Positions 5,835-27,049 of a stretch of 33,779 nucleotides of DNA are shown here, in pieces. The stretch spans positions 1-33,779 of the IMG/VR virus record IMGVR_UViG_3300013111_000617, one strand, 5' to 3'. Made by a program: the position numbers and the translations under genes. Source of the DNA: a virus. Every line of letters begins with the position of its first letter. Position 1 is the first letter of the stretch. The notes beneath the pieces were generated by a model, which ran no database searches, was not told where the DNA came from, and saw only the letters and a list, made by a program, of their open reading frames with translations.

Positions 5835-5865
5835 ACACTACCTCTCTCAGCCTTGAATTTCAAGG
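5835..5865 (-). promoter_or_regulatory. Candidate promoter with overlapping palindromic operator before helicase
   Basis: On the minus strand, TTGAAA (5863-5858) is followed after 17 bases by TAGTGT (5840-5835), a sigma70-like pair with a good -35 and a weak -10. The -35 lies inside the perfect palindrome CCTTGAATTTCAAGG (5851-5865, 7-bp arms, one central base), so a bound repressor could block it. This is the only sizeable gap (5797-5907) within the minus-strand operon, which fits a secondary promoter for the helicase-primase-polymerase genes. Regulation is inferred. Confidence 0.45.
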
Positions 5866-5907
5866 TGGATCAGCGGCGGATTTCCCCAGCAATCCCAAGC
5901 ACTTGGA

Positions 5908-6740: not shown

Positions 6741-6743
6741 AGA

Positions 6744-7935: not shown

Positions 7936-7937
7936 GG

Positions 7938-9293
7938 TTACTCCAGCTTGAAATGTTCGACCTTGTAGTCACGCTTCCTCGCGAAGCGCTCGATCTGCTT
8001 GGCGTGGTCCAAGCACTTGGGGATGTTGTCCACGATGAAGATGGCCTCGGAGGAGACCTTCCCCTCGTAGGCCCTCGCCAGCCGACCCGTGGCCTGCTGG
8101 AAGTCGTTCTCGTTGGCGAAGGTGGTGGTGAAGATACCCACGCTCAGGTCCGGCCGGTCCAGCCCCTCCCGAGCGGCACCCATGGTGCCCACGACGATGT
8201 CGTTCTCGGTCAGGTTGGTCAGCCGCTTCTTGCCCTTCACCTTGCTCGAGATCACCCCGCAGCCCGGCAGGACCTCCTGCAGGCGGGGGATGTGATCGTC
8301 ACGTAGATGGGAGAGGACGAGTACCTTGTGCCCAACCTCCTGCGCGTTTTGCGCGAGGCCCGCGATCATGCCGTTGCGGGTGGGGTGCTTCGCCTGCCAC
8401 TGCCGTACCTTGACGACGTGGATGTTGTCGTTGACGTAGAAGCCGTCGCGCTCCTCCGCGGTGGGGGTCAGGCCGGTGTGCGCCAGGTAGACCACGGGGG
8501 GTACGTCCACCGAGAGGTCGGTGTAGACCACCTTCCCGAGGTGGATCTCGAAGAAGCGCTCGTTGCCGTCGGTCCTCCGCCTGGTGGCGGTCAGGCCGTA
8601 GCGGTCCCCGGTGAAGAAGGAGGCCACGCGGTTGAACTCCATCGCGGCCATGTGGTGGGCCTCGTCGTAGAGCACCGTGGCGAAGCGGCGCCGGACCCAC
8701 TCGGGGACGAGGTTGTCCTTGATGCGGCGCCACAGGGTCTGGACGGTGGCCAGGACGATGGGGCGATCCCACTCGGCCTTGGGCCCCACCACGTGCCCGA
8801 TGTCGTCGTCGCTCATCTGCAGCTTGTCGAGGACCTCCTCGTGCCACTGCTCCAGCAGTCCGTTGTCGTTCACGATGACCAGGGCAGGCCCCTGACCAAA
8901 GGCGATGCGGTCCAGCCCAACAACCGTCTTCCCGCGGCCGCACCCCAGGTTGAGGATGCCAGAGTGGCTGGACCGCATCGCGTGCATGGCCGCCGCCTGG
9001 ATCTCGTCCCGGGGGCGGATGGTGGAGTTGTAGCCGATGCGTTCTGTGGGTGGCGCGAGGTCGATGACCTCACAGGGGACCCGCTCCTGCGGGAACTCCC
9101 TCGGGAGTGCGATGTGGTGCACCTCCTCCTCCCAGACGCGCACGGACCGGGCCACGAACTCGCCGGAGCTCGTCTTCTCGGTGAACCAGTAGGTGAGCGA
9201 TGCCTCGAGGGCGTCGAGGGGGACGAGGGCCTTGGGGACCCACAGCATGGACCCCCGGTACGCCTTGTCCGGGTGGAGGGAGAGGAACCTCAT
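7938..9293 (-). CDS. Superfamily 2 DEAH-box helicase (UvsW/RecG-like recombination or repair helicase)
   Basis: ATP-dependent nucleic acid translocase. The start is ATG at 9293-9291, overlapping the stop of the HTH gene (ATGA), and gives 451 aa; the longer frame upstream is non-coding shadow. Walker A is GCGRGKT (117-123), motif II is DEAH (210-213), motif III is LTATRRR, and motif VI is QATGRLARAYEGK near the C-terminus. The first 100 residues resemble the N-terminal region of phage SF2 helicases such as T4 UvsW, with EIQAAAMHAM acting as a Q-like motif. Likely roles are fork regression, branch migration or recombination-dependent replication. The exact subfamily is not certain. Confidence 0.92.
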   Translation of the reverse strand: MRFLSLHPDKAYRGSMLWVPKALVPLDALEASLTYWFTEKTSSGEFVARSVRVWEEEVHHIALPREFPQERVPCEVIDLAPPTERIGYNSTIRPRDEIQAAAMHAMRSSHSGILNLGCGRGKTVVGLDRIAFGQGPALVIVNDNGLLEQWHEEVLDKLQMSDDDIGHVVGPKAEWDRPIVLATVQTLWRRIKDNLVPEWVRRRFATVLYDEAHHMAAMEFNRVASFFTGDRYGLTATRRRTDGNERFFEIHLGKVVYTDLSVDVPPVVYLAHTGLTPTAEERDGFYVNDNIHVVKVRQWQAKHPTRNGMIAGLAQNAQEVGHKVLVLSHLRDDHIPRLQEVLPGCGVISSKVKGKKRLTNLTENDIVVGTMGAAREGLDRPDLSVGIFTTTFANENDFQQATGRLARAYEGKVSSEAIFIVDNIPKCLDHAKQIERFARKRDYKVEHFKLE

Positions 9294-9682
9294 CGCAGCT
9301 CGGCCGTGAGGATGTCGCGGAGGCGCCCCAGCACGTGCTCGAGGTCGTCGCCCTCGAGGCCGACCTCGGTGAGCGTGGGCGTGAGCTCGCGGCAGATGCG
9401 GAGGCCTACTTCGGCCGACCCCTTGTAGTCCTTGAGGTCCTGGCCGTGCTTCCGCTGCAGCCGCTGCTCCGCGACAGTCTGTCGTATCTCGGCCGCCAGG
9501 CTGGCTGGCGGGCGGCACGTGCGGAGGAACTGGGTGAGGAACTTGTCGCTGGGCAGCCTCCCCTTGTTCTCGATGAGTCGGATGTACTCGGTGGAGCAGC
9601 CCATGGCCTTGGCCAGGCTCGCGTGGCTCGCGTAGTGGGCCCGGTTCCGGATCTCCTTGAACATGGTGCTGACGCTGGGCAT
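9290..9682 (-). CDS. Xre-family helix-turn-helix DNA-binding protein
   Basis: A 130-aa protein whose residues 10-60 form a lambda-repressor-like HTH: SLAKAMGCSTEYIRLIENKGR has the usual Ala/Gly turn and the YIRxIE recognition-helix pattern. The C-terminal half is helical and acidic and may mediate dimerisation. The ATG at 9682 has GAGGG about seven bases upstream, and its first base is shared with the preceding TGA (TGATG). As the second gene of the replication operon it could be an autoregulator. The palindrome CGACAGTCTGTCG lies inside its own coding sequence (9472-9484) and recurs elsewhere in the window. Confidence 0.85.
   Translation of the reverse strand: MPSVSTMFKEIRNRAHYASHASLAKAMGCSTEYIRLIENKGRLPSDKFLTQFLRTCRPPASLAAEIRQTVAEQRLQRKHGQDLKDYKGSAEVGLRICRELTPTLTEVGLEGDDLEHVLGRLRDILTAELR
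9471..9485. promoter_or_regulatory. Palindrome CGACAG-T-CTGTCG, copy 1
   Basis: GCGACAGTCTGTCGT lies in the coding sequence of the HTH gene. The same 13-base palindrome (centre A or T) occurs at 15092-15104 and 22063-22075. It may be an operator, but its intragenic location makes function uncertain. Confidence 0.35.
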
Positions 9683-10041
9683 CACCGATCCCTCTGTGGG
9701 AAGTACCGCTTCCGGGGAACGCTGCGCACTGCGTAGTGGAGTTCCCGGATGAGAGCATCCAGGGTCTGGATGCCAGTATTGTACGCCAGCTTGGAGAAGA
9801 AGGTCTCCTCCTCGCTGTCGATCTCTTGCACCGCAGGGAGGTCTTCTTCCTGCGGGAGCTCTGCGGGCACCTGGCTGCTGGCTGCTACCCCGTGTCGTGC
9901 CCGAAACACGGGTCCGCATGCGCCCTTGTGGCCGCAGGAGTACCGGCACTCGTAGGTCGAGTCGTCGTACTCCTTCCCGAAGCAGGCTGGGCGCCCTACC
10001 TGCTGCGTGTTGAGGTCCCTGAATCGCAGTGTTCCTGGCAT
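9682..10041 (-). CDS. Small Cys-motif protein, first gene of the replication operon
   Basis: A 119-aa protein with ATG at 10041 and GGAG five bases upstream. A four-cysteine cluster occupies the N-terminal half: C20, C32, C36 and C42, in the context ACFGKEYDDSTYECRYSC. This C-x11-C-x3-C-x5-C pattern, starting CFGKxYD, resembles small Cys-motif phage proteins and probably binds zinc or an Fe-S cluster. The rest is acidic then basic, ending in RKRYFPQRDR. It leads the minus-strand operon and is divergent from the structural operon, so it is likely expressed early. The function is unknown. Confidence 0.75.
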   Translation of the reverse strand: MPGTLRFRDLNTQQVGRPACFGKEYDDSTYECRYSCGHKGACGPVFRARHGVAASSQVPAELPQEEDLPAVQEIDSEEETFFSKLAYNTGIQTLDALIRELHYAVRSVPRKRYFPQRDR

Positions 10042-12118: not shown

Positions 12119-13080
12119 CGCCAGAGCGCATGGCCGCGTTCCACCGCGAGCTGGAGAAGCAGGCCAACCCGGTGAACCTGGTGGGCCGCCTCGGCAGGCT
12201 GATGGCCGAGGTCCCGGGCAGCCTGGCCGGAGGTCTGAGCACCACGGCCCGCCTGATCGACCCGCGACAGACCCGCGGCATCCTCCGCAAGGGCTGGCAC
12301 CACATGACACCGGCGGGCGCGGAGACCCAGAGCCTCCTCAAGGAGGTGAAGCGGCTGGGTACGACCTGGGAGGACTTCGCGAGGGCGAGGGGCCTGCCCA
12401 TGGATCCGGCTGCTGCCGTACACGCCCGCGGGCTCGAGCAGGTGCGCGCGGCGCGCGCCGCCCTCCCCGCAGCGCAGCGCACTGCCGCCGAGCAGGGCCG
12501 GTGGGCCGGCAGGTCCAGGATGCTGGGAGGTACGGGCGCACGCGGGGCTGCCAAGTCCCTGGAGGGACAGGCGGCCAAGGCGCACCTGTACGAGCCGAGC
12601 ATCCCACTGATGCAGGCCGTGCGTGACCCGAAGGTGCTGGCAGAGGAGCTGTCGCGCCGTGGGTGGACAGGCCAGGGCCAGATCGGGAGGTACATCCCCT
12701 GGGGTGGCAAGGGCATCGTGACCGGCCTGGGTGCGGGGTTCACCATCCCCGCCGTGGCGAAGAAGGATCCGCACGGCGACGGCAAGGGACGCTTCGAGCG
12801 CATCGGTGAGCACCTGGGTGGCAACCTGGGTCTCGTGGCCAGCATGCCCACCGGCTTCGCCGGCTTCTTCGGAGGCTGGGAGCTCGGCGCGAAGGCCATG
12901 GGGCTGCCGGGCAAGGGCATCGACAAGCTCATCGAACGTGGGAAGCTGCGCAAGCGCCTGCAGAACCCCCAGCCCGCGGGGCCCCCCTACACGGAGTTGC
13001 CCCTCTTCGATCCGAAGGGGTACCGTTCGGGCCCACAGCCAGCGGGACAGGTCGTGCTGCGGCCGAGAGGTGAGGCGTAA
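12100..13080 (+). CDS. Probable virion protein with glycine-rich hydrophobic segments
   Basis: 326 aa from the ATG at 12100 (GGTGAGG just upstream). The ATG at 12115, which makes an ATGA overlap with the previous stop, is an equally possible start. The N-terminus MTPERMAAFHRELEKQANP resembles the F-x-x-E-x-E-K leader of other proteins here. Two Gly-rich hydrophobic stretches (203-220 and 239-264) could insert into or cross a membrane. There are no cysteines. The Pro-rich tail ends in a TAATG overlap with the portal gene. An internal virion or ejection protein is possible, but this is inferred from composition and position. Confidence 0.65.
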   Translation: MASRVMTPERMAAFHRELEKQANPVNLVGRLGRLMAEVPGSLAGGLSTTARLIDPRQTRGILRKGWHHMTPAGAETQSLLKEVKRLGTTWEDFARARGLPMDPAAAVHARGLEQVRAARAALPAAQRTAAEQGRWAGRSRMLGGTGARGAAKSLEGQAAKAHLYEPSIPLMQAVRDPKVLAEELSRRGWTGQGQIGRYIPWGGKGIVTGLGAGFTIPAVAKKDPHGDGKGRFERIGEHLGGNLGLVASMPTGFAGFFGGWELGAKAMGLPGKGIDKLIERGKLRKRLQNPQPAGPPYTELPLFDPKGYRSGPQPAGQVVLRPRGEA

Positions 13081-15071
13081 TGCAGGGAATCGGCTTCCAG
13101 AACACGGCCTATGGGACCCAGCCCATGCAGCTGTCCTCCCGCCCCGGCGGGACGATGGGCTACGAGAAGATCGGGGTGCCCTACCCCAACCCGTTCTTCG
13201 ACGCGGCGCAGACCTACTTCCCCAGCCGCCTCAAGCAGATGCTGCGGTGGTGCCGGTACTTCTTCTTCACCAACCCGCTCATCAACGCGGTGGTCTACAA
13301 GCTGGCCGAGTACCCCATCACCCCCATCGTCTACGACACCAAGGAGAAGAAGGTCCAGGAGCGGTACCGCCACCTGTTCGAGGACCAGCTCCAGATCCGG
13401 AAGTTCCAGATCGAGGTGGGGCTGGACTACTACAACTTCGGCAACGCCTTCGTCTCCGTCCACTTCCCCTTCGTCAAGTTCCTGGAGTGCCGTGAGTGTG
13501 GGCACGAGGCCCCGGCCAAGGACCTCCGCCCCCACTACCGCTTCTCCGACCTGAAGTTCATGCTGCGCTGCCCCAAGTGCGGGCATCACGCGGCCGCCCG
13601 GGTGCGGGACGAGACCCTCCGCAGCCCCAAGGGCATCCGGCTCATCCGGTGGGACCCGGAGCGGGTGGAGATCGAGCACAACGAGGGCCTGACCGACCCC
13701 GTCTACTACTACAAGATCCCCCGCCGCCTGAAGAACCGCATCCGTGTCGGACGCAAGCGGGTGGTGGAGCAGATCTCGGACACCTTCATCCAGGCGATGC
13801 GGAAGAACAAGGCCGTCGTGTTCGCGAACGACCGCATCTTCCACCTGAAGCGGCCCATCATCGCGCAGAAGGACCAGGGCTGGGGCATGCCCCTGGTGCT
13901 GCCGGTGCTCAAGGACATCTTCTACCTGCAGATCCTCCGCAAGGGGCAGGAGATGATTGCGCAGGAGCACATCGTGCCCTTCCGCGTCCTCTTCCCCCAG
14001 GCTGGGAGCAACACCAGCGACCCCTACAGCATGGTGAACCTCAGCCAGTGGCGCACCCAGATCGAGGACGAGGTGGCGCGGTGGCGGCAGGACCCCAACT
14101 ACGTCCCCATCATGCCCATCCCCATCGGCCACGAGATGATCGGCGGCCAGGGGCGCGCCCTCATCCTGCACCAGGAGCTGCGGGTCTGGAGCGAGCAGAT
14201 CATCGCGGGCATGAACGTCCCCCTGGAGTTCATCTTCGGTGGCCTGCAGTACTCCGGCACCAACATCTCCATGCGCATCCTGGAGAACCAGTTCATCGGG
14301 TACCGCGAGGACCAGAAGCGCATGGTCCGCGACTTCATCATGGGGCAGATCTGCGACCACCTCGGGTGGCCGCGCGTCGGCGTGCGCTTCGAGCGCTTCA
14401 AGATGGCCGACGACCTGCAGCGCCTGATGATCTACTTCCAGGCCAACCAGATGGGCAAGCTCTCCGACCGGACCCTCCTCCGTGAGCTGGGCGAGGACCT
14501 GGACGTCGAGGAGGAGCGCAAGCAGGGCGAGCTGGCCAAGCAGGTGACGGCCAACCGCAAGATGATGGTGGCTCAGGCAGCAGCCCAGGGCGAGTCGCAG
14601 CTGGCGGCTCTGCGCTACCAGATGCAGGCCCAGGAGCTGCAGATGTCCCTGCAGCAGCCGCAGGACACGCCACCCGACTACGCCGAGGGGCCGGCCAGCA
14701 CGCCGAAGTCCCTGCGTGGTGAGGAGATCGCCCCCGGGGTGCCCAACGAGGTGGCGGTCTACCCGGAGAACGCGCAGGACCCCATGGCCATGGCGCAGGC
14801 CCCGAGCTACCCCGGCCAGTCCGGGCAGCTGGACATCCGCAAGGTCGCCCAGCGCATCGCGGCGCACCTGCGCAAGCTCGAGCGGGAGAACCCGGCCGCC
14901 TACGGCCAGGCGATCCAGCGGCTGAAGATGGGCAGCCCCCAGCTGTACGAGATGGTCGTGCAGCAGCTGTCCGAGGGCGGTGGCGGCGAGCGAGACACGC
15001 TCAACCCCATGCAGCAGCCGCTCCCCCAGGTGAAGCCCCCGCGCCGGCCCGAGGGCAAGGCCATCGTGTAG
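13080..15071 (+). CDS. Portal protein with inserted zinc ribbon
   Basis: Forms the dodecameric ring at the capsid vertex for DNA passage. The 663-aa protein has the plan expected of phage portals: an N-terminal wing (FFFTNPLINAVVYKLAEYPI), a central stem/crown region, the segment LIGxQ-like ELRVWSEQIIAGMNVPLEFIF, and an ISMRILENQFIGYREDQ helix typical of portals. A long Gln-rich, disordered C-terminus follows (about 490-663). Unusually, a four-Cys ribbon (C137/C140 CREC and C164/C167 CPKC) is inserted in the wing. One K-V-A motif appears near residue 600. The ATG overlaps the previous TAA. Family assignment rests on overall pattern, not an alignment. Confidence 0.82.
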   Translation: MQGIGFQNTAYGTQPMQLSSRPGGTMGYEKIGVPYPNPFFDAAQTYFPSRLKQMLRWCRYFFFTNPLINAVVYKLAEYPITPIVYDTKEKKVQERYRHLFEDQLQIRKFQIEVGLDYYNFGNAFVSVHFPFVKFLECRECGHEAPAKDLRPHYRFSDLKFMLRCPKCGHHAAARVRDETLRSPKGIRLIRWDPERVEIEHNEGLTDPVYYYKIPRRLKNRIRVGRKRVVEQISDTFIQAMRKNKAVVFANDRIFHLKRPIIAQKDQGWGMPLVLPVLKDIFYLQILRKGQEMIAQEHIVPFRVLFPQAGSNTSDPYSMVNLSQWRTQIEDEVARWRQDPNYVPIMPIPIGHEMIGGQGRALILHQELRVWSEQIIAGMNVPLEFIFGGLQYSGTNISMRILENQFIGYREDQKRMVRDFIMGQICDHLGWPRVGVRFERFKMADDLQRLMIYFQANQMGKLSDRTLLRELGEDLDVEEERKQGELAKQVTANRKMMVAQAAAQGESQLAALRYQMQAQELQMSLQQPQDTPPDYAEGPASTPKSLRGEEIAPGVPNEVAVYPENAQDPMAMAQAPSYPGQSGQLDIRKVAQRIAAHLRKLERENPAAYGQAIQRLKMGSPQLYEMVVQQLSEGGGGERDTLNPMQQPLPQVKPPRRPEGKAIV

Positions 15072-16321: not shown

Positions 16322-16414
16322 ACACATTCCTCCAGCATTGTAGGTTCATCCCCCTTATGACAGTTGCCACTGAGCCCCTTGCAGGGGTAGCCTGGGGACC
16401 AAATAGGTGTCTTC
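16322..16414. promoter_or_regulatory. Divergent control region upstream of RNA polymerase
   Basis: A 93-bp gap between the acidic gene and the RNA polymerase gene. It contains the inverted repeat CCCCT-TGC-AGGGG (16375-16387). A weak plus-strand pair TTGCCA (16365-16370) and TAGCCT (16389-16394, 18-base spacing) might be a promoter, with the inverted repeat falling between the two boxes. The plus-strand start ATG at 16415 is preceded by AGGTG. No convincing minus-strand promoter is seen. Confidence 0.4.
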
Positions 16415-19400
16415 ATGACAACGCTGAACCCAGAGGGCTCGTTTGACGCCCTCAAAGACCGTGTCAGCGGTGCCATCGAGTCGACCTTCCCCTACGAGGG
16501 ACGGGACCGCAGGCTGGAAGTAGACCGAGTCTGGGTCGACGACAAGAAGAGCATCGACGACATCCGCTCACAGCAAGAGGCCAAGATGAGAGGCAGGTCC
16601 TGGACCGTGCCCGTCATGGCCGACGTCCGCCTCATCGACAAGGAGTCGGGCAAGGAGCTGGACTCCCGGGCCATCCGGGTGGCCAACCTCCCCAAGGTCA
16701 CCCGCCGCTACTCCTACATCGTCGACGGCAAGGAGCGGCAGGTCGACAACCAGTTCCGCCTGAAGTCGGGCGTGTACCACCGCACCACAGGCAAGGGTCA
16801 GCTGGTGTCGAAGTGGAACGCGGAGAAGGGCCTGGGCTTCGACCTGAAGTTCGACCCGGCCAACCGCCGCTACCTCATCAACTACGGCGACTCCAACATC
16901 CCCCTGTACCCCGTGCTCAAGGCGATGGGGGTGGGCGACGATGAGATCGAGCGCGAGCTCGGCCGTCGGATGCTCACCGCAGGGAAGAAGGAGAAGCACG
17001 ACGTCGCGATGCGCGCCTTCTACAAGGCGTCCACCGGGAAGCAGGCCGACAGCATCGAGGCTGCCGAGGAGCACATCGCCAAGACCCTGGCCGAGACCAA
17101 GCTCCGGCCCGACAGCACCGTGCTCACCCTGGGCAAGAAGTTCGACCACGTGAGCTCCAAGGCGCTGCTGGCCTCGGCCGCGAAGCTCGCGCGCATCTCC
17201 CGCGGTGAGGAGGACGAGGACAACCGCGAGCACCTGTTCTTCAAGGACGCCCTCTCCACCGAGGACTTCATCGAGGAGCGGCTGCAGCGAGCGCAGCGGG
17301 ACATCAAGGCGAAGCTGTCCAACAACATCGACAAGAAGGGCAAGCGGGTCCGCGAGGTCATCTCCCCCGACCTGTTCGACAAGCCCATCCGCTCGTTCTT
17401 CACCTCCAGCCAGCTCGCTCAGATGCCCGAGCAGATCAATCCCCTGGAGTTCGTGTCCGGCCAGACCAAGACCACGGTCATGGGAGAGGGTGGGATCAAG
17501 ACCACGCACACCCTGACCGACGAGGTCCGGCTCATCGACCCGACCCACCTGGGCTTCCTCGACCCCATCCAGACTCCCGAGGGAGACAAGACGGGCATCA
17601 CCCTCCAGCTCCCGCTGGGCGCACTCAAGAAGGGCAAGAAGCTCTACATCCGCGCCTACAACACCAAGACCGGGAAGATGGAGAACGTCGACGCCCACAA
17701 GGCGCACAACAGCACGATGGCCTACCCCGACCAGTTCTCCTGGAAGGGTGGGAAGCCAACCCCCGACGCCTCCGGCCGCGTGGCGGTCAGCGGCCCGGGT
17801 GGGGAGCTGAAGACGGTCGACTACAAGGACGTGGACTACGTCCTGCGCTCCCCCAAGGCCCTGTTCGGGATGTCCTCCAACCTCATCCCGTTCCTCCAGA
17901 ACAACCAGGGTGTCCGCGCCATGACGGCCTCGCGCCAGCAGGAGCAGGCCGTTCCCCTGGTCGACCGCGAGCAGCCCCAGGTGCAGGTGAAGACGGAGAG
18001 CGGACGCACCTTCGAGCAGACCCTCGGCAGGTTCAACGCGCACCACGCTCCGGTGGCGGGCAAGGTCATCGAGATCAAGCCCGACGCCGTCGTCATCCGT
18101 GGGAAGGACCGCAAGAAGCACGAGGTCCAGCTCTACGACCACTTCCCCCTCAACGAGGCGTCCAGCGTCCTGCACTCCAACCCCGTCGTGAAGGTGGGGG
18201 ACGAGGTCAAGTCGGGGCAGCTGGTGGCCGACTCCAACTTCACCAAGGGCGGCACCCTCGCCCTGGGGAAGAACCTGCGCGTCGCGTACCTCCCGTACAA
18301 GGGGTACAACTTCGAGGACGGCATCGTGGTCTCGGAGACGGGGGCGCAGAAGCTCACGTCCCAGCACATGCACCGCAAGCACCTGGCCATCGGCAAGGAC
18401 ACGGTCCTGAAGCGGGACAAGTTCCGCGCCTACTCCACCCCGGACCGCGCGCCGGACTCCAAGCTCAAGAAGCTCGACGACGACGGGATCATCCGGGTCG
18501 GCGAGACGGTCACCGAGGGCGACATCCTGGTGGCCTCCCTGAAGAAGCCGGCCCCCACCAGTGAGCGGCGCGCCCTCGAGCGCCTGCACAAGAGCCTGGT
18601 CAAGGACCTGGTCGAGCGGCCGCTCACCTGGGACAACGACACCCGCGGCAAGGTGATCCGGGTGGTGAAGACCCCCAAGGGCGTCGACGTCCACGTCGCC
18701 ACCGAGGAGCCCGCCCGCGTTGGGGACAAGCTGGTCGGCCGCCACGGGAACAAGGGCGTCATCACCGCCATCATCCCCGACCACGAGATGCCGAGGCCCA
18801 CGGAGAAGGGGTCCGCCCAGCTCGACGTCCTGCTCAACCCGGCGGGGATCCCCGGCCGCATCAACCTCGGGCAGGTCCTGGAGACCGCGGCGAGCAAGCT
18901 GTCCACGAAGCGCCGGCCCTACGTGGTCAACAACTTCGCCGGCGGGGAGAAGGACTACATCTCGGACCTGAAGAAGGAGCTGGCCGCAGCCGGGGTCAAG
19001 GACACCGAGCCCCTGGTCGACCCTCAGACTGGCGCCGAGCTGGGCGACACCCTGACGGGCGACCAGTACATGCTCAAGCTCAAGCACCAGGTCACCAAGA
19101 AGTCTGCGGCCAGGTCCGGGGGGACAGGCTACGGCTACGACGTGAACCGCGTGCCCAAGGGCGGGGGTGCCCACGGTGCCCAGGCGATGGACGCGCTGGG
19201 CATGTACGCCATGCTCGCGCACGGAGCGAAGGCCAACATCCGGGAGATGGCCACCTACAAGACCCAGCGCAACGACGAGCTGTGGGACGCGCTGCAGTCG
19301 GGCGAGCCCCTCCCCCCGCCGACGACCTCCTTCGCCTACGACAAGTTCCAGGGGTACATGAACGTGATGGGGATCAACCCCACGAAGCGGGGCAGCGTGA

Positions 19401-22400
19401 TCAACCTGTCCCCCTTGACCGATGCCCAGGTCGTCCAGATGTCCAACGGGGCACTGCCAGACGCGGGGCTGATGTTCCAGGGCAAGGACATGAAGCCTGA
19501 GCGAGGTGGTCTGTTCGACCCCCGCATCACCGGCGGCCCCGACGGCACGAAGTGGAGCCACATCGAGCTGGCCGAGTCGATGCCCAACCCGGTGTTCGAG
19601 CGCGCCATCCTCACGCTGACGGGGCTGACCAACAAGAAGTACCAGGCCATCATGGCAGGCAAGGACGAGCTCGACGGCAAGTCCGGGCCCGAGGCCATCC
19701 GGGAGAAGCTCAAGGACATCGACGTCGACAAGCGGCTGCGGCAGCTCCGCCGGAAGATGGAGAAGACCGACGCCCCGGCAGCCCTGGCCAAGATGAGGAA
19801 GGAGTCCCGCTACCTCGAGGCTCTGCAGGCCAACGAGATGACGCCGAGCGACGCCTACCTCATGTCGGTGGTGCCCGTCCTCCCGCCGTCGATGCGGCCG
19901 GTCTCCGTGATGGACGGGGGCGACCTCAACACCCGCGACATCAACGGGCTGTACAAGTACCTCGCCATCTCCAACCGGCAGCTCAAGGAGTTCGACCCGG
20001 GCCTGCCCGAGGGGGAGAAGCGCAAGCTGCAGGCGGAGCTGTACGACGACCTCCGTGCCCTGACGATGACGGGCAAGAACATCAACAAGCAGCAGTACCG
20101 CGGCGTGATGGAGACGATGAAGGGGGTGCCCCAGCCCAAGGACTCCTTCTTCCAGAAGAACCTCATCAGCCGCAAGCAGGACCTGTCGATGCGGTCCATC
20201 ATCATCCCCGAGCCCGCGATGGGCCTGGATGAGGTGGGCATCCCCTACTCCCTGGCGAAGGAGACCTACAAGCCCTTCATCGTGAGGAAGCTGCGCACCG
20301 AGCAGGGGTTCACCCCGCTCGAGGGCCAGAAGGAAGTGGAGAAGGACACGGAGCTGGCCCGCCGCACCCTGGAGCGGGTGCTGGATGAGCGGCCCGTGCT
20401 GCTGAAGCGCGACCCCGTGCTCCACAAGTTCGGCATCATGGCCTTCCAGCCCAAGGTGGTGGAGGGCAAGGCCATCCGCATCCACCCGCTGGTGACCGGC
20501 GGGTACAACGCCGACTTCGACGGCGACGCCATGTCCGCCTACGTCCCCCTCACCCACGAGGCGGTCAGCGAGGCGCACAAGATGTTCCCCTCGCGCAACC
20601 TGTTCAGCCCCACCTCGGGCCGGCTGATGTACCAGCCCGGCCACGAGGCACAGCTCGGGCTGTACCGGCTGACGAAGTGGGGCAAGCGCACCGGCCACGA
20701 GTTCAAGTCGACCAAGGAGGCCGCCAAGGAGGCCGCCGAGCTCGGCCTGGGCATGACCGATGTCATCACGGTCAAGGGCAAGGAGACGACCCTCGGCCGG
20801 CTGCTCATCGACCGGGTGCTGCCGAAGGGGGAGCGGGGGAACACGAAGCTCCTGCACACCCCCAGCTACCTGCTGGACAAGGGGGAGGCCCGGAAGCTCC
20901 TGACCTCCCTGGCCGAGAAGCACCCCAACGACTTCGGGGATGCGGTCAACCAGCTGAAGGACCTGGGGAACAACTACGCCTACCAGTCCGGCTTCTCCGT
21001 CAGCCTCCGAGACTTCACCCCGCAGCGGAACATCCGCGACCGCATCGTCAACGCGGCGCACAAGGAGGTGGCCGCCATCCACAAGCGGCGCGACATCTCC
21101 GAGGAGAAGAGGGAGCGGCTGGCCGCCGAGGCGTACCAGAAGGCGACCAACGAGCTGACCCGCATCCTCAAGCCGAAGCTGGCCAGGGAGAAGAACAACG
21201 CGCTCGAGCTCGTGTCCTCCGGCGCCCGTGGAGACTGGGACCAGCTGCGGCAGATCGTCGTGGCCCCGATGCTCATCAAGGACGCGGCCGACAGGCCCAT
21301 CCCCATCCCCATCACGAAGAGCTACGCCGAGGGCCTGGACACGGCGAGCTACTTCACCACGATGCAGGGCGCCCGCAAGACGATGATCCAGAAGACCAAG
21401 GAGACCGCCAAGCCTGGCGCGCTCACCAAGGACATCGTCAACTCGGCCATGAACATGCTCGTCATCCCGGGCGACGCCCCGGACGACGCCGAGGACGGGA
21501 TCTTCCTGGACACCGAGAGCCGGGAGATCATCGGCCGGTTCCTGTCGAAGCCCGCCAAGCTGCGGACGGGGGAGACCCTGCCGCGCAACACGGAGCTCAC
21601 CCCCGAGGTCATCACGCGCATCCGCAACGCGGGCACGAAGAAGGTCTCGGTGCGCAGCCCACTACGCAGTGCCGCGGCGCAGGGCATCTACGCCAGGGAC
21701 TACGGGACGCTGCCTGGTGGTGGCCTGCCTGAGCCGGGCACCAACATCGGCGTCATCGCAGCCCAGGCGCTGGGCGAGCCGGCGACCCAGCTCTCCATGA
21801 AGGCGTTCCACCACGGAGGCGTGGCGAGCACCAAGGGGAAGGTCACCGACTCGTTCACCCGCGTCGAGAACCTGTTGCAGATGCCGTCCACCCTGCCCGA
21901 CTCAGCGACCCTGGCTGGCAGGGGCGGACGCATCTCCAAGATCGAGAAGGACCGGGACGTCGGCGGGCTCAACGTGTGGGTCGAGGACAAGCGGCACTAC
22001 GTGCCCGAGCACCTGGTCCACTCCGGCCTCCACCTGCGCAAGGGCCTGGCCGTGAAGCGCGGCGACAGACTGTCGGCGGGACCCATCAACCCGCACGAGC
22101 TTCTGCCTTTGACCAACATCAACACCGTGAGAAACTACCTCACGGATGAGGTGCACACCGCGTACAAGGACTCGGGAGTCCAGCGGCGGAACGCCGAGGC
22201 GGTCATCCGTGCCATCACCAACCTCGGTGTGGTGCGGGACCCCGCGGGCGACCCGACCCTGCTGAAGGGCGACCTCGTCTCGGTGTCGCAGATGGAAGCG
22301 CGCAACCGGAAGTCGAAGAAGCCAGTGGCGTTCCGCCCCGTCCTGCGCGGGGTGAACCAGACGCCGCTGGACATGCAGACCGACTGGATGGCACGTATGC

Positions 22401-22546
22401 AATACCAGCGCCTGCAAGATACAGTGGTGGACGCAGCCCTGAAGAACTGGGGCAGTGACATTCACGGGATGCACCCAGTCCCGGGCATGGCCTACGGAGC
22501 CGAGTTCGGGAAGCCCCCGCTTGGGGTGACGAGCTTCAAGTACTGA
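16415..22546 (+). CDS. Single-chain multisubunit-type RNA polymerase (fused beta and beta-prime)
   Basis: DNA-dependent RNA polymerase, 2043 aa. The beta half (about 1-990) shows VDNQFRLKSGVYHRT, HLGFLDPIQTPEGDKTGI (about 378-395), YLPYKGYNFEDGIVVSE (about 624-640), GDKLVGRHGNKG (770-781) and LNPAGIPGRINLGQ. The beta-prime half (about 1000-2043) shows ERGGLFDPRITGG (1029-1041), PVLPPSMRP, the catalytic loop NADFDGD (1365-1371; D1367, D1369, D1371 bind Mg), a bridge-helix region at YFTTMQGARK, trigger loop LSMKAFHHGG (M1795, H1799) and a complete C-terminal region. The N-terminal beta-prime zinc ribbon is absent: GLFDPRITGGP runs almost directly into HIELA. At the second site, SPLRSAAAQGIYARDYG lacks all cysteines. 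I find no cysteine in the protein. E. coli beta plus beta-prime total about 2750 aa, so this is a reduced form. Start ATG at 16415. Confidence 0.96.
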   Translation: MTTLNPEGSFDALKDRVSGAIESTFPYEGRDRRLEVDRVWVDDKKSIDDIRSQQEAKMRGRSWTVPVMADVRLIDKESGKELDSRAIRVANLPKVTRRYSYIVDGKERQVDNQFRLKSGVYHRTTGKGQLVSKWNAEKGLGFDLKFDPANRRYLINYGDSNIPLYPVLKAMGVGDDEIERELGRRMLTAGKKEKHDVAMRAFYKASTGKQADSIEAAEEHIAKTLAETKLRPDSTVLTLGKKFDHVSSKALLASAAKLARISRGEEDEDNREHLFFKDALSTEDFIEERLQRAQRDIKAKLSNNIDKKGKRVREVISPDLFDKPIRSFFTSSQLAQMPEQINPLEFVSGQTKTTVMGEGGIKTTHTLTDEVRLIDPTHLGFLDPIQTPEGDKTGITLQLPLGALKKGKKLYIRAYNTKTGKMENVDAHKAHNSTMAYPDQFSWKGGKPTPDASGRVAVSGPGGELKTVDYKDVDYVLRSPKALFGMSSNLIPFLQNNQGVRAMTASRQQEQAVPLVDREQPQVQVKTESGRTFEQTLGRFNAHHAPVAGKVIEIKPDAVVIRGKDRKKHEVQLYDHFPLNEASSVLHSNPVVKVGDEVKSGQLVADSNFTKGGTLALGKNLRVAYLPYKGYNFEDGIVVSETGAQKLTSQHMHRKHLAIGKDTVLKRDKFRAYSTPDRAPDSKLKKLDDDGIIRVGETVTEGDILVASLKKPAPTSERRALERLHKSLVKDLVERPLTWDNDTRGKVIRVVKTPKGVDVHVATEEPARVGDKLVGRHGNKGVITAIIPDHEMPRPTEKGSAQLDVLLNPAGIPGRINLGQVLETAASKLSTKRRPYVVNNFAGGEKDYISDLKKELAAAGVKDTEPLVDPQTGAELGDTLTGDQYMLKLKHQVTKKSAARSGGTGYGYDVNRVPKGGGAHGAQAMDALGMYAMLAHGAKANIREMATYKTQRNDELWDALQSGEPLPPPTTSFAYDKFQGYMNVMGINPTKRGSVINLSPLTDAQVVQMSNGALPDAGLMFQGKDMKPERGGLFDPRITGGPDGTKWSHIELAESMPNPVFERAILTLTGLTNKKYQAIMAGKDELDGKSGPEAIREKLKDIDVDKRLRQLRRKMEKTDAPAALAKMRKESRYLEALQANEMTPSDAYLMSVVPVLPPSMRPVSVMDGGDLNTRDINGLYKYLAISNRQLKEFDPGLPEGEKRKLQAELYDDLRALTMTGKNINKQQYRGVMETMKGVPQPKDSFFQKNLISRKQDLSMRSIIIPEPAMGLDEVGIPYSLAKETYKPFIVRKLRTEQGFTPLEGQKEVEKDTELARRTLERVLDERPVLLKRDPVLHKFGIMAFQPKVVEGKAIRIHPLVTGGYNADFDGDAMSAYVPLTHEAVSEAHKMFPSRNLFSPTSGRLMYQPGHEAQLGLYRLTKWGKRTGHEFKSTKEAAKEAAELGLGMTDVITVKGKETTLGRLLIDRVLPKGERGNTKLLHTPSYLLDKGEARKLLTSLAEKHPNDFGDAVNQLKDLGNNYAYQSGFSVSLRDFTPQRNIRDRIVNAAHKEVAAIHKRRDISEEKRERLAAEAYQKATNELTRILKPKLAREKNNALELVSSGARGDWDQLRQIVVAPMLIKDAADRPIPIPITKSYAEGLDTASYFTTMQGARKTMIQKTKETAKPGALTKDIVNSAMNMLVIPGDAPDDAEDGIFLDTESREIIGRFLSKPAKLRTGETLPRNTELTPEVITRIRNAGTKKVSVRSPLRSAAAQGIYARDYGTLPGGGLPEPGTNIGVIAAQALGEPATQLSMKAFHHGGVASTKGKVTDSFTRVENLLQMPSTLPDSATLAGRGGRISKIEKDRDVGGLNVWVEDKRHYVPEHLVHSGLHLRKGLAVKRGDRLSAGPINPHELLPLTNINTVRNYLTDEVHTAYKDSGVQRRNAEAVIRAITNLGVVRDPAGDPTLLKGDLVSVSQMEARNRKSKKPVAFRPVLRGVNQTPLDMQTDWMARMQYQRLQDTVVDAALKNWGSDIHGMHPVPGMAYGAEFGKPPLGVTSFKY
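22062..22076. promoter_or_regulatory. Palindrome CGACAG-A-CTGTCG, copy 3
   Basis: GCGACAGACTGTCGG lies within the 3' part of the RNA polymerase gene. Its 13-base core (22063-22075) is the same palindrome as at 9472 and 15092 with the central base complemented. Confidence 0.35.
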
Positions 22547-23030: not shown

Positions 23031-24152
23031 GTGCCGCCCAACCCCCTGGTGCACGGCCGACGCAGGCCGGCCTTCATCGAGTCTGCACGGGTGATGAACG
23101 TGAACGCAGCGAGCTACTCGGTGGACATCCTCACTGACCCGCCCGACGAGCGGTTCTGGGGTGACATGCCGTTTGCGTCCCCGTACATGCACCCGCAGGG
23201 GGGCGAGGGGCTGTACGTCATGCCCGAGGTGGGAGCTCGCTGCTGGGTCTGCTGGCCCAGCGACGCGCTCTCTCCCTTCGTGCTGGCCTACGGCCCCTAC
23301 GCGTCCGCGGACCAGGAGGCGGCAACCCGCTGGCGCTCCGGCCGGGAGGAGCTCCGGCCCGGGGACATCTACCTGGGCACGCGTGACCGCAACGGCATCG
23401 TCATCCGGCGCGGCGGGGTGCTGCAGGTGATGTCCACCCCGCTGGCTCAGCGGATGTACATCCCCATCAACAACCTCATCCGGGACTTCTGCCAGAACTA
23501 CGGCATGCACACGTTCGGCGGCGACCTGACCTGGGAGGTGGGGACCCCGGCGGACAACGCCTACGGGGACCGGGAGACGGTGTGGCGCCTCAAGGCCAAG
23601 GAGAAGGCGGACGACCCTGGGATCGTCTGCGACTTCTCCCTGGGCCACCACGACGAGGACGTGGCCCTGGAGCTGCTCATCTACAGCGACGGCACGGATG
23701 AGCACACGCAGGTGGCGCACCTCACCATCGACAAGGCCGGGGTGACTACCTGGACCCTCGAGGACAACTTCAACATCGTCACCGAGAAGTCCTTCTCAGT
23801 GGAGGCCACGGAGAACGTGGAGATGGTGGCGACCCAGGAGATGAACCTGGACGGCAAGGCCGGCGTGCTGCTGCAGAGCACCAGCGCCGGCGTGAAGCTG
23901 CTGGCCAACGCGAACATCGAGCTGGGTGACTCCGGCCTCGTGGTGACGCCCGATGGGCGGGTCGAGGTGGGAGCAGGGGCCACGGAGAAGATGGTGCTGG
24001 GGGACTCCCTGGCCAGCTGGCTGCTCAACCACGGCCACATCATCACGGGTACCCTGAGCGGCACGGCGGTCACTGGTCAGACCGCCGGGCTGATGCCGGG
24101 TACTCCAGACCCGACGACCACGATCCTCTCGAAGAAGCACACGGTGAACTAG
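23031..24152 (+). CDS. Baseplate/tail spike protein (gp5/VgrG/gpV-like)
   Basis: 373 aa from the GTG at 23031; ARVMNVNAASYSVDIL looks like the N-terminal strand of a gp5/gpV OB-fold domain, so this early start is favoured. An OB-like domain follows, with GLYVMPEVGARCWVCWPSD. The region from about 200 to 330 is rich in short beta repeats (VTTWTLEDNFNIVTEKSFSVEATENVEMVATQEMNLDGK), as in a triple-stranded beta-helix needle. The C-terminal LGDSLASWLLNHGHIITGT and a Gly/Thr/Pro-rich tail are typical of phage baseplate assembly protein V relatives. The role would be puncturing the host envelope at the tail tip. Assignment is from pattern only. Confidence 0.75.
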   Translation: MPPNPLVHGRRRPAFIESARVMNVNAASYSVDILTDPPDERFWGDMPFASPYMHPQGGEGLYVMPEVGARCWVCWPSDALSPFVLAYGPYASADQEAATRWRSGREELRPGDIYLGTRDRNGIVIRRGGVLQVMSTPLAQRMYIPINNLIRDFCQNYGMHTFGGDLTWEVGTPADNAYGDRETVWRLKAKEKADDPGIVCDFSLGHHDEDVALELLIYSDGTDEHTQVAHLTIDKAGVTTWTLEDNFNIVTEKSFSVEATENVEMVATQEMNLDGKAGVLLQSTSAGVKLLANANIELGDSGLVVTPDGRVEVGAGATEKMVLGDSLASWLLNHGHIITGTLSGTAVTGQTAGLMPGTPDPTTTILSKKHTVN

Positions 24153-24161
24153 GAGACTGCC

Positions 24162-26147
24162 ATGGATCTCTTCCTCGACGCACAGCCCACCACGGAGAAG
24201 ACGGCCGCGTCCATCGCTCGGATGGACAGCAACCCCGCCACGTGGTCCAAGCAGATCCTGCAGGAAGCGCACCGTCAGCTGCCCTTCCTCCAGGAGTACG
24301 ACATCTCGGTGAACCTCACGGACTCCGCCCCCGAGCAGGGCTACGCCATCGGGTACATCGAGGTGAAGAACCCCACCATGATGACCCCGGGCGACGAGCT
24401 GATCACCCAGCCGGTGAAGCACGGCCGCATCCCCATCATCATCCGGGAGTTCGAGCTGCACCCGCTCGACCTGTTCATGAAGGGGGACAAGTCGTACCCG
24501 CTGACGGAGGCGCGCTTCCGCCAGGCGATGTTCCGGCCGGAGGAGTTCGACGCCCCCGGGAACCTCCCGCCCGAGGTGAACATCGAGAACAACCTCGAGC
24601 CTCCCTTCGTGGGCAACCGCGGCGGCTTCCTCTCCACGGGCCGCGAGGTGACCAGCTCGGTGCGCGACCTGCCGCCGCTGCTGTACACGCTGGCGCCGCT
24701 GATGGACAACCAGACCATCGAGAAGGTGGCGGACATCGTCGCCTCCGACCCCACCGTGCAGGCACGGTTCCGGGACAACCCCGACGCCGCGGCGAGCCTC
24801 GGGTTCCTGGCGGGCTCCAGCGAGATGGAGAAGGCCTCGTCCGATGAGGTGTGGTCCTCCGTGGTCGAGCGCATCAAGCCCAACGTCATCCAGGTGGAGA
24901 AGCTGGCCAGCGGGAAGTACCGGGTGAAGTGGGCCAACTCCGAGGCGTTCGCGCCCCAGGAGGCAGAGATGGTGCAGCCCCAGGTCGAGGAGATGGCGGG
25001 CGAGGAAGCCATCGGTGGCCTCGGCGAGGGCGAGAACCTCACCGTGTCCCCCGACGCCGGCCCCACCCCGATGACGGAGCCGGAGCTGGACCTCAAGGCC
25101 ATCGCCGAGTTCGGCCAGTGGAAGGTCGTGTCCCTGGACGGGCGTGAGCTGGTCGGCTGGGTGTTCCCCCAGCTCCTGAGCTTCGACGGGGAGTCCCTCC
25201 CCATGGCGCTGTTCACCAACGGCTCGGAGTACAGCATCCAGGGCGCCATCGCGGGCAGCCGCGTGGGCCAGGGGGTGAACCTCCCCCACTCCGACCCCCA
25301 GGGCTACGGCTGCTTCTACTACATCTCCGAGGGCACGGCGCGCGCGACCATCCCCTTCCAGATCGAGGCCCTCGACGAGACCGGGGAGTCCCGCACCTAC
25401 TCGGTGAGCACCGACATGGGCGAGGAGTTCCAGGTGCAGGTGGTCCCGCAGCTGCAGGTCATCACGCCCATGGGCGAGGGGATGTACGGGGTGCCCGAGC
25501 ACTTCGGCTTCCTCCCCCTGACCGGGCAGCTGACCAAGCTGGTGGAGGATCCCGCGGCCCTGACCAAGGAGTCCGAGGCCCGGGAGATCGCCGACTGGGG
25601 CGAGGTCATCACCGACGGCACCGTCTACAGCCTGAGCGGCCGGCCGTTCGAGAAGCTGGCGGACTCCGTCAAGAGCTTCATCGACAGGCCGGCGGCCGAG
25701 TTCCTCCTGGTCTCCGCCGGGGCCAACCCCAGCGAGGTCAAGGAGAAGCTCGCCGTCGCCGCCGAGTTCGGCGGCGCGTCGTTCACCTTCAACAACCTCC
25801 GGCAGATCACCCCGTTCGTCGAGGTCTACGAGGACTCGATCAAGACCGCCAGCGCCGTGCGGGGCAAGCTCCCCGAGCCCCGGCTGCTGGTCAAGGAGGC
25901 AGCCGACGTGGCCGTCGGTGACGGCACCGCCGTCGACGCCGTGCTGTCGCTGGGGTTCCTCACCCCCGAGACGGTGTCGGTCTTCCTCTCCTACATCCCG
26001 TACCTGGAGGACACCATCAACCGGCTGGCTGACCTGCTGATGGCCACCCGGATGGGCCTCCGCATCATGAACGAGAGCTCGGTCCGCACGGCGCTGTTCT
26101 CCCTGGAGGAGACGCTCAACGGCCTGAAGCTGCTGGCGCAGGCATGA
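24162..26147 (+). CDS. Large structural protein of unknown function, with E-K-x-A motifs
   Basis: 661 aa; ATG at 24162 with AGGAGA upstream. The N-terminus is MDLFLDAQPTTEKTA. Six K-[TVL]-A motifs occur (EKTA near 13, then EKVA, EKLA three times and IKTA). Residues about 90-190 have IEVKN and a Pro/Tyr-rich segment; the middle (about 320-460) is beta-rich with the hallmark Trp/Phe strands VSLDGRELVGWVFPQLL. The C-terminus is helical (LLMATRMGLRIMNESSVRT). It has only one cysteine. Directly after the spike gene and before the next by an ATGA overlap, it is probably a tail or baseplate component. I do not recognise the family. Confidence 0.7.
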   Translation: MDLFLDAQPTTEKTAASIARMDSNPATWSKQILQEAHRQLPFLQEYDISVNLTDSAPEQGYAIGYIEVKNPTMMTPGDELITQPVKHGRIPIIIREFELHPLDLFMKGDKSYPLTEARFRQAMFRPEEFDAPGNLPPEVNIENNLEPPFVGNRGGFLSTGREVTSSVRDLPPLLYTLAPLMDNQTIEKVADIVASDPTVQARFRDNPDAAASLGFLAGSSEMEKASSDEVWSSVVERIKPNVIQVEKLASGKYRVKWANSEAFAPQEAEMVQPQVEEMAGEEAIGGLGEGENLTVSPDAGPTPMTEPELDLKAIAEFGQWKVVSLDGRELVGWVFPQLLSFDGESLPMALFTNGSEYSIQGAIAGSRVGQGVNLPHSDPQGYGCFYYISEGTARATIPFQIEALDETGESRTYSVSTDMGEEFQVQVVPQLQVITPMGEGMYGVPEHFGFLPLTGQLTKLVEDPAALTKESEAREIADWGEVITDGTVYSLSGRPFEKLADSVKSFIDRPAAEFLLVSAGANPSEVKEKLAVAAEFGGASFTFNNLRQITPFVEVYEDSIKTASAVRGKLPEPRLLVKEAADVAVGDGTAVDAVLSLGFLTPETVSVFLSYIPYLEDTINRLADLLMATRMGLRIMNESSVRTALFSLEETLNGLKLLAQA

Positions 26148-27049
26148 GCACGGTCCTCGGCGAACGGCCTCGCCACCCGAGCGAGCGCTTCATCCTCTTC
26201 CTGCTGACCCAGCAGGACCCGGACGAGTGCCACACCGACGTCATCCTGGCGCAGCTGGATGCGTGCAAGCTCCCGCCGGCCCACGAGAACCACGTGGACG
26301 GCCTCCGCATGCTGCTCCTGCGGGACATCCCCAAGCCGTTCATGCCCAGGAACCGGCGGCACCAGAAGTCGATGGACTTCCTCCGCCAGCACGAGGTGTA
26401 CGACCTGCACCACCCCGGTCCCGCGGTGGAAGAAGCCGCGGCCATCCTGGGGGACTACCCGGTGCGCAGGAAGGTGGAGATCGGGCTGCTCGGCCGCATC
26501 TCCCACGCCCTCATCGCCCGAGAGATCGGGGACCAGCAGGGCGTGACGCTCACCGAGGAAGGCGTGAGCGCCTACGAGTACTTCTTCTGGGACGTCAGCA
26601 CGATGAGCCTCGAGGAGTGGGCGGCCATCATCGACCAGCAGCCCATCACCATGCTCATCCGGGACAACCAGATGTCCGCGCTGCAGTGCGGAGGCAAGGT
26701 CGCCCTGGCGAAGATGGGGCTGGACCCCAGCGTCGACCCCCAGGAGATGATCCAGGACATGCTGCGTCGCGTGTACCTGAACTTCGTGGAGGTGGACAAG
26801 GTCATCCCCCTGCACAAGGACAAGATCGGCATGCTCTCGAGCCTGGCGAGCACCGGCCTCGCGCTGTACAAGCAGGCGACCACCAGCGAGCACGCCCTCC
26901 GTCGACTGCTCAAGGACTTCGAGCGGATGAAGATGGAGACCAACGACGAGAACACACCGGCGCTGTCCGAGCTGGTGGACAAGGACGGGACCTTCACGGA
27001 CACTGCAGACATCATCCCGCTGCACGGCGGGGCGAAGAAGGGGAGCTGA
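26144..27049 (+). CDS. Unknown 301-aa protein, coupled to the upstream structural gene
   Basis: ATG at 26144 overlaps the previous stop (ATGA). Mostly helical with several Arg/His-rich helices (PFMPRNRRHQKSMDFLRQH). A central segment, LGRISHALIAREIGD, looks like a helix-turn-helix, followed by YEYFFWDVSTMSLEEWAAI. A similar HTH plus aromatic plan is seen in some DNA-packaging proteins, so a small-terminase-like or connector role is possible but weakly supported. The C-terminus is acidic (residues 260-301). It overlaps the next gene by one base (TGATG). Confidence 0.6.
   Translation: MSTVLGERPRHPSERFILFLLTQQDPDECHTDVILAQLDACKLPPAHENHVDGLRMLLLRDIPKPFMPRNRRHQKSMDFLRQHEVYDLHHPGPAVEEAAAILGDYPVRRKVEIGLLGRISHALIAREIGDQQGVTLTEEGVSAYEYFFWDVSTMSLEEWAAIIDQQPITMLIRDNQMSALQCGGKVALAKMGLDPSVDPQEMIQDMLRRVYLNFVEVDKVIPLHKDKIGMLSSLASTGLALYKQATTSEHALRRLLKDFERMKMETNDENTPALSELVDKDGTFTDTADIIPLHGGAKKGS

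Follow-up and report, generated by a model that had tools for sequence, protein, structure and literature searches.

A beta/beta-prime fusion in one open frame

The window examined here, that is, the whole 33,779-base linear virus record IMGVR_UViG_3300013111_000617 (guanine-plus-cytosine [GC] content, 67%), carries a gene in which the counterparts of the bacterial RNA polymerase subunits beta and beta-prime follow one another in a single chain (Table 1). The open reading frame (ORF) starts with ATG and has no internal stops over the 2,043 residues up to its stop codon, and a composition count finds 0 cysteines in all 2,043. Its GC content by codon position is 0.63/0.41/0.95, and a 1,504-residue ORF antisense to it fails the codon-position GC filter that the polymerase frame passes. 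Along the chain, Pfam domains appear in the order Rpb2_3, Rpb2_6, Rpb1_1, Rpb1_2, Rpb1_3, Rpb1_4, and Rpb1_5, two of the seven (Rpb1_1 and Rpb1_4) under the curated cut-offs. The initial annotation had read an uninterrupted, cysteine-free beta/beta-prime chain from the letters alone, and this reading holds: domains of both halves are recognized and not of one only, the frame is open throughout without a frameshift, and no cysteine had been overlooked.

The sequence GLFDPRITGGP is found at residue 1032, HIELA at residue 1049, and SPLRSAAAQGIYARDYG at residue 1748. Alignment with separately encoded bacterial subunits shows that the beta catalytic region and the trigger loop are retained, that NADFDGD is intact, and that beta passes into beta-prime at about residues 985 to 1000 without a long linker; identity to cellular enzymes is approximately 25 to 30%. 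The catalytic motifs are placed as the annotation had them, with NADFDGD at 1365 to 1371 and M1795 and H1799 inside the trigger loop. Structure prediction, which had been proposed as a check, likewise recovers the bacterial folds. The AlphaFold2 model of the beta half (mean predicted local distance difference test [pLDDT] score, 86.7) has bacterial beta subunits as its best PDB matches (Z 35.2; 854 residues aligned; root mean square deviation, 3.4), and that of residues 996 to 2043 (mean pLDDT, 84.0) has a bacterial beta-prime subunit (Z 34.5; 929 aligned; root mean square deviation, 4.7). By domain series, motifs, and fold, the protein is a bacterial-type two-barrel RNA polymerase.

In bacteria, separate RNA polymerase subunits come together on an alpha dimer, and the enzyme has two zinc sites. 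The window enzyme shares its domain order, catalytic motifs, and folds but is one chain from which both zinc sites and cysteine are gone. Among 20 records searched for polymerase partners, the window included and most of them incomplete, alpha was matched in none (control matches in 13 of 14 genomes) and omega in none (controls in 14 of 14), and each of the 20 contains one polymerase, in one case as two pieces of the same frame. With beta and beta-prime linked covalently, this polymerase would need no alpha for its assembly.

The frame recurs elsewhere. The whole chain is present at 100% identity in one other contig and its first 2,015 residues at 100% in another, and two contigs (L006 and L010) encode relatives at 65 to 67% identity; all four have a single frame with 0 cysteines. 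Two fragments from one sample (L015 and L008) span the halves of the chain at 91.5 to 92.8%. Fusion by assembly error is rejected by these identical or related frames in other contigs. Host contamination is rejected as a source as well, the cellular-type records that were read (H4 and H9) having separate genes and both zinc motifs; some “phage” records of the collection are in fact cellular, H4, H5, H7, and H8 being annotated with rpoB/rpoC and H9 unannotated. Against the L015 and L008 fragments, the ratio of nonsynonymous to synonymous substitution rates (dN/dS) is 0.16 and 0.13 by simple counting, in a genome rich in GC, and the polymerase frame is under purifying selection.

Table 1. Positions of the polymerase, its parts, and the conserved neighboring genes in the window
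Feature	Position	Strand	Evidence
Single-chain DNA-directed RNA polymerase (beta, beta-prime N, and beta-prime C fused), 2,043 residues, 0 Cys	16415..22546	+	ORF, Pfam, fold matches
Beta-like half, residues 1-995	16415..19399	+	Rpb2_3, Rpb2_6; AlphaFold2 model
GRHGNKG, residues 775-781, conserved beta catalytic region	18737..18757	+	Motif and alignment
Beta/beta-prime fusion junction, about residues 985-1000	19367..19414	+	Alignment with bacterial subunits
Site of absent first zinc ribbon (GLFDPRITGG ... HIELA, residues 1032-1053)	19508..19573	+	Motifs and alignment
Beta-prime N part including catalytic barrel, residues 996-1440	19400..20734	+	Rpb1_1 (under cut-off), Rpb1_2, Rpb1_3
NADFDGD magnesium loop, residues 1365-1371	20507..20527	+	Motif
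Beta-prime C part, residues 1441-2043	20735..22543	+	Rpb1_4 (under cut-off), Rpb1_5
Second zinc site, lost ligand 1: A1688 (C in 97/100 fused chains)	21476..21478	+	100-chain alignment
Second zinc site, lost ligands 2-4: S1752, Y1759, D1762 (C in 97/100)	21656..21706	+	100-chain alignment
Trigger loop EPATQLSMKAFHHGG, residues 1788-1802, including M1795 and H1799	21776..21820	+	Motif and alignment
Portal-like protein, upstream of polymerase	13080..15071	+	Weak matches to PHROG portal profiles (best, 7.6e-5)
Conserved downstream gene; weak baseplate OB-domain hit under cut-off	23031..24152	+	24/29 loci
Conserved downstream gene, no family assigned	24162..26147	+	23/29 loci
Conserved downstream gene, no family assigned	26144..27049	+	21/29 loci

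A large fused lineage and its sister group with a divided beta-prime

Searches of viral and metagenome-assembled genome collections yielded 168 loci, pooled into 127 distinct polymerase ORFs, and the resulting lineage counts are lower bounds, the scans covering the best 80 of 297, 80 of 204, and (in the scan led by phage Arash) 80 of 456 matches. Beta, beta-prime N, and beta-prime C are held together in 112 of these ORFs (101 closed, 11 open), and at least 100 are distinct closed full-length fused chains of 2,039 to 3,777 residues, by which a unique fusion is rejected. The other 15 are contig-end fragments and pieces of Arash, D69, D181, and L080, in the last of which the beta ORF ends after 713 residues.

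The closest relatives in the phage collection are Arash (Salmonella) and D69, D148, and D181 (Vibrio); no paper on Arash was found in the open-access literature. Like the window enzyme, this group has beta fused to beta-prime N, lacks the first zinc ribbon, and (in Arash and D69) has a portal homolog just upstream, but its beta-prime C is a separate gene that keeps the four zinc-site cysteines. The Arash-led scan gave 82 classified loci. One-chain polymerases account for 18 of them (part of these on contigs counted before), and beta joined to beta-prime N beside a separate beta-prime C gene for 13. Three pieces are present in 12, the first two of such pieces in 18, a single piece in 13, beta alone in 6, and a cut beta in 2. 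All 6 beta-alone loci are open at the contig end, and one of the 2 with a cut beta is D181, where a homing endonuclease gene interrupts it. Two whole, separate beta and beta-prime genes were found in none of the 82. The sister group of the one-chain lineage thus keeps beta joined to beta-prime and has beta-prime cut, which results in two or three chains. In the cut forms (L002, L003, L004, and the cut loci among L189-L266), beta-prime is broken after the catalytic barrel, the site at which splits are also described for jumbo phages and cyanobacteria (PMC7598289). A second cut lies, judging by ORF lengths, roughly 100 to 170 residues beyond the end of beta.

Another phage type is represented by GN1 (L171) and Carin-5 (L185), in which separate genes for beta-prime and then beta keep both zinc motifs; GN1 has NLDYDGD, and the polymerase genes of Carin-5 adjoin an annotated sigma factor gene. 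Scans led by the GN1/Carin-5 beta-prime or by that of a Rhizobium phage found no relatives in the viral collection, and phages with separate beta and beta-prime genes therefore appear to be unsampled there.

Two trees were built, both as quick searches without bootstrap. In the first, which contains 42 of the 100 fused chains, these form one branch (Shimodaira-Hasegawa-like approximate likelihood ratio test [SH-aLRT], 100) next to Arash/D69 (100) and separated from six bacteria (100), with the warning that GN1/Carin-5 and the bacteria are on long branches that join each other. The second, under a site-mixture model with GN1/Carin-5 left out (25 one-chain, 7 two-chain, 6 three-chain, and 6 bacterial rows), separates a one-chain side (SH-aLRT, 81) from a cut side (100). 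In both, the window chain and its two 65 to 67% relatives form a clade (100) nested within the one-chain group; in the first tree, branching close to the window chain is weak, with SH-aLRT values of 17 to 75 at several forks. The simplest reading is a single fusion followed by later cuts in beta-prime, which would make the one-chain form the older by parsimony, since the bacterial beta-prime is uncut. The suggestion in the initial annotation that a reduced, cysteine-free, single-chain enzyme could define a distinct branch is partly supported: the fusion and the loss of the first ribbon are lineage-wide, being shared by at least 100 chains, and do not single out this enzyme.

The nearest published group is that of the multimeric RNAP-encoding Caudovirales (mReC; Weinheimer and Aylward 2020, PMC7481178), where RNAP stands for RNA polymerase. 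As described there, these are uncultured tailed phages whose bacterial-type beta and beta-prime carry NADxDGD, are distinct from those of cells, and are encoded close to phage hallmark genes; the relevant sections of that paper refer to subunits, beta and beta-prime, and fusion comes up there for crAss phages only. In the window enzyme both subunits are recognizable and NADxDGD is present, by Pfam where the mReC paper uses COG profiles. Because the mReC definition, as given in the sections concerned (PMC7481178), would admit fused chains, the two groups may overlap or coincide, and an overlap is likely. All 8 capsids reported for mReC are of the T4 type, PF07068 (PMC7481178). This family matched in 0 of our 20 records, and its positive control also gave no match; the large terminase PF03237 was found in 5 of the 20 (3 over the cut-off) and not in the window. 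A scan led by a relative returned no contig from the samples named for mReC 1 to 3. In a hydrothermal study, one polymerase gene of viral origin, which its account describes as beta and beta prime, branches at the base of mReC (PMC10159854). The phiKZ-type enzymes are phage-borne kin of cellular polymerases without alpha and omega (PMC7598289). The break in their beta-prime follows the catalytic barrel, a position shared with the two-chain sister group, but these enzymes consist of four or five polypeptides with beta and beta-prime unjoined and cysteines present. The window enzyme, with beta and beta-prime whole in one chain, is not of this type.

Length variation in the lineage is accompanied by inserts, present in 20 of the 22 fused chains longer than 2,200 residues (L018 and L077 have none). 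The carriers are L009/L013, L067, L071, L087, L108, L114, L115, L119, L124, L127, L139, L152, L157, L160-L165, and L167. The inserts are intein-like and occupy conserved sites corresponding to window residues of about 390, 773, 784, 809 to 813, 949, 1371, 1374, 1761, and 1799; one that was checked matches LAGLIDADG_3 and, under the cut-off, Intein_splicing. In two carriers, L013 (14156-14176) and L165, the residues preceding the insert are NADFDGN or GADFDGN, and ordinary splicing would therefore yield a chain with Asn where the third magnesium-binding Asp is expected. The longest ORF, L167 (3,777 residues, four inserts), lies on contig JAGMDA010000864.1, which was binned with a Candidatus Eisenbacteria genome; this is possibly a host clue or a binning error.

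Loss of the zinc sites and purge of cysteine

Both zinc sites are absent, as the initial annotation had noted. The first ribbon is deleted in the window chain and is missing from all 100 aligned fused chains, which have no cysteine column there. At the second site the four ligands are cysteine in 97 of the 100 chains and A, S, Y, and D in 3 (the window chain, L007, together with L006 and L010), and at any non-ligand column cysteine is seen in at most 11 chains. Among 148 distinct ORFs spanning the second site, C-x(5,9)-C-x2-C is present in 142; four of the remaining six belong to the window clade (L006, L007, L010, and the fragment L008), and the other two, L071 and L167, have an insert at the motif. 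The zinc-free and cysteine-free state, from which a branch had been proposed, is a derived condition of a small nested subclade (3 of 100). The fused lineage is a large, little-described group, and the window enzyme is a variant within it that lacks zinc sites and cysteine.

Exactly four cysteines are found in 64 of the 100 fused chains, so that the window enzyme lacks cysteine largely as a result of losing one zinc site; as a trait separate from zinc loss, the absence of cysteine is rejected. The rarity of all other cysteine is common to the lineage, with 51 non-zinc cysteines in 208,823 residues (0.024 per 100), a count to which the alignment may admit a few insert residues. Six bacterial beta plus beta-prime pairs have 15 to 22 cysteines per 2,339 to 2,855 residues, and GN1 and Carin-5, with separate genes, have 16 in 2,015 and 14 in 2,010 (0.79 and 0.70 per 100).

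Proteins encoded at the same loci keep their cysteines: 0.96 per 100 residues in the portal-like protein (81 loci), 1.18 in the helicase (38 loci), and 1.27 (94 loci), 0.46 (89 loci), and 0.47 (58 loci) in the three downstream proteins. Relative to four conserved neighboring proteins, the polymerase is purged approximately 19- to 53-fold, and the purge thus appears centered on the polymerase and far weaker in its neighbors. The 16 other window ORFs taken as genes hold 83 cysteines in 5,994 residues, a rate at which 28.3 would be expected in 2,043 residues (Poisson probability of none, approximately 5e-13); two short ones have none (0/354 and 0/155) and one has 1 in 661. The near-total purge of non-zinc cysteine across 100 fused chains is a new observation here. 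In the open-access literature, which mostly does not cover subscription papers, we found no description of a zinc- or cysteine-free enzyme of this family or of a cysteine purge in virion polymerases.

Genomic surroundings and a proposed place in the virion

The neighborhood was checked at 29 hand-picked loci, 26 of this lineage plus GN1, Carin-5, and the Rhizobium phage. In 25 of the 29, Arash and D69 included, a homolog of the portal-like gene precedes the polymerase on the same strand at a distance of 0.4 to 5.2 kb, and the Arash copy is annotated as portal protein; the four without it are L008, which begins inside the polymerase, and GN1, Carin-5, and the Rhizobium phage, which belong to other lineages. 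The three conserved genes downstream of the window polymerase were not found in Arash or D69 in this check. In the window, the portal-like gene and the polymerase gene are 1.3 kb apart, and the interval contains minus-strand ORFs and an inverted repeat, CCCC-TTGCA-GGGG (16375-16387), that ends 27 bases ahead of the polymerase start. A minus-strand replication block (166-9758) encodes a family A DNA polymerase, a primase, a DnaB-like helicase, a uracil-DNA glycosylase-like protein, and an SF2 helicase. Toward the other end, an open 1,490-residue ORF (29308-33777, plus strand) has an inorganic pyrophosphatase domain (PF18823, 1.4e-33) and a weaker codon-position GC contrast than the other window genes. 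Sigma region 2 is matched in 6 of the 20 records searched for partners (4 over the cut-off) and region 4 in 5 (3 over), and promoter recognition might proceed via a sigma-like or other phage factor.

For comparison we examined four known virion polymerases, all of which are given here. In crAss-like phage phi14:2, gp077, which from its length and its DFDID motif we take to be the polymerase, is one chain of 2,180 residues, recorded as structural by tandem mass spectrometry, and is nearly cysteine-free (2 cysteines, at residues 3 and 2179), where 14 proteins of that phage not labeled structural have 66 in 5,370; the window chain differs from it in having NADFDGD and strong Pfam matches. The crAss enzymes are described as having no recognizable similarity to cellular profiles (PMC7481178), and the window enzyme, with such similarity and without DFDxD, is not of that type. 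P23-45 gp96, a virion polymerase fused to the tape measure protein (PMC10770324), is likewise a one-chain two-barrel enzyme without cysteine (0 in 5,002), but is set apart by this fusion and by its great divergence from cellular enzymes. The virion polymerase of N4 (gp50), which is packaged in the virion and ejected (PMC12633501, PMC4496689) and is argued to need unfolding for tail passage (PMC12633501), resembles the window enzyme as one giant chain without cysteine (0 in 3,500) but belongs to the T7-like single-subunit family, with an unrelated catalytic fold. The N4 genes labeled RNAP1 and RNAP2 encode 4 cysteines in 269 residues and 9 in 404, and 11 N4 proteins taken as nonvirion, these two included, have 74 in 5,544. 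Cysteine is therefore nearly absent from three of the four virion polymerases, two of them distant two-barrel enzymes (phi14:2 and P23-45) and one of an unrelated family (N4), with phiKZ as the exception. The window polymerase, with 0 in 2,043, shows the same mark, which is proposed here and is not an accepted criterion. Among large virion proteins, those beside the virion polymerases, phi14:2 gp076 and gp078 (L296; 1/1,421 and 1/1,797) and the N4 66-kDa protein (L294; 0 in 644), are nearly or wholly free of cysteine, and others, such as phi14:2 gp082 (6/1,340) and the N4 160-kDa protein (11/1,382), are not.

The chain is very probably a functional single-chain phage polymerase core of bacterial type. 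Its proximity to the portal-like gene, its purge of cysteine, and its likeness to virion enzymes tip the balance modestly toward packaging in the virion and ejection, and a working one-chain core that is packaged and ejected is, with somewhat better footing, our best overall explanation. The chain is accordingly likely to be virion-adapted and more than simply “reduced.” Under this explanation, the polymerase would be made alongside the structural proteins and packaged near the portal, would cross the tail unfolded or partly unfolded, would refold in the host with no subunits to assemble, no zinc to load, and no risk of disulfides, and would then transcribe early phage genes; an enzyme in one piece, free of zinc and thiols, would be well suited to this path. 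A broader proposal can be offered only tentatively: that carriage in the virion and threading into the host explain why the enzyme works as one chain lacking zinc, cysteine, alpha, and omega, and that near-absence of cysteine is a mark distinguishing virion-borne, ejected phage enzymes from those made in the cell, reached independently in N4, P23-45, crAss-like phages, and this lineage. We rate it lower because some ordinary virion proteins of the comparison phages are also without cysteine.

Several observations weigh against packaging and ejection. The cysteine comparison was devised after the depletion in the lineage had been seen, and the four phiKZ virion polymerase subunits have 16 cysteines in 2,614 residues, next to 33 in 2,850 for six nonvirion proteins. 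P23-45 is little informative, since its nonvirion gp64 (0/616) and its portal (448 residues), major head protein (409), and gp101 (507) also lack cysteine. Ordinary virion proteins are cysteine-free elsewhere too (N4 major coat protein, 0/401; phi14:2 gp079 and gp081, 0/593 each), and the mean for seven further proteins from the virion region of N4 is 0.52 per 100, so that low cysteine may mark virion-borne proteins and not specifically ejected ones. Some thinly sampled window ORFs share the trait (0/1,004 over 3 loci; 0/155 and 0/324 at 1 locus each), the identity of the portal rests on weak profile matches and the Arash annotation, and no sigma match over the cut-off occurs in the window record or the L005, L006, L007, and L010 contigs, most records being fragments. 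In addition, the catalytic and trigger loops are modeled uncertainly (pLDDT blocks of 72 to 54), and dN/dS is higher against the 65 to 67% relatives (0.49 and 0.39).

The strongest rival, to which we give perhaps a third of our belief, is a nonvirion polymerase made after infection for middle or late genes, with the purge due to some other selection and the single chain serving assembly without alpha. With one polymerase per record any time class is possible, and the nonvirion enzyme of P23-45 is cysteine-free where the virion enzyme of phiKZ is not. Packaging is nonetheless favored by the strength of the purge relative to the four conserved neighbors and by the position of the gene after the portal-like gene, and neither the second polymerase of N4 nor those of GN1 and Carin-5 are poor in cysteine. 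A decaying or inactive polymerase, or a regulator on a polymerase scaffold, is very improbable: the window enzyme has lost every ligand of a four-cysteine site that 97 of 100 relatives keep, but the catalytic motifs are retained, dN/dS stays low at close range and below 0.5 at longer range, the same loss recurs in the open frames of the two 65 to 67% relatives and a 93% fragment, and the stretch of the lost site is modeled at a pLDDT of about 80 to 92, a value that may be borrowed, since the alignments fed to AlphaFold2 were relatives' sequences mostly with zinc cysteines. Equally improbable is a purge from base composition or a phage-wide thiol-poor habit, which the 67% GC content and the few other cysteine-free window ORFs would allow but which the cysteines of the 16 window ORFs and the undepleted, well-sampled neighbor homologs contradict in the main; phage-wide avoidance of cysteine is rejected.

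As a natural family member without separate subunits, alpha, or zinc sites, the window enzyme shows which parts transcription can spare, and it offers biochemistry a one-gene, metal-simple, and thiol-free polymerase. If it is ejected, it would represent a further way of delivering transcription into the host, the closest to cellular enzymes, beside those of N4, P23-45, and crAss-like phages. Ejection would also lead to a simple prediction, that a purge of cysteine marks ejected enzymes, which proteomics on cultured relatives could test.

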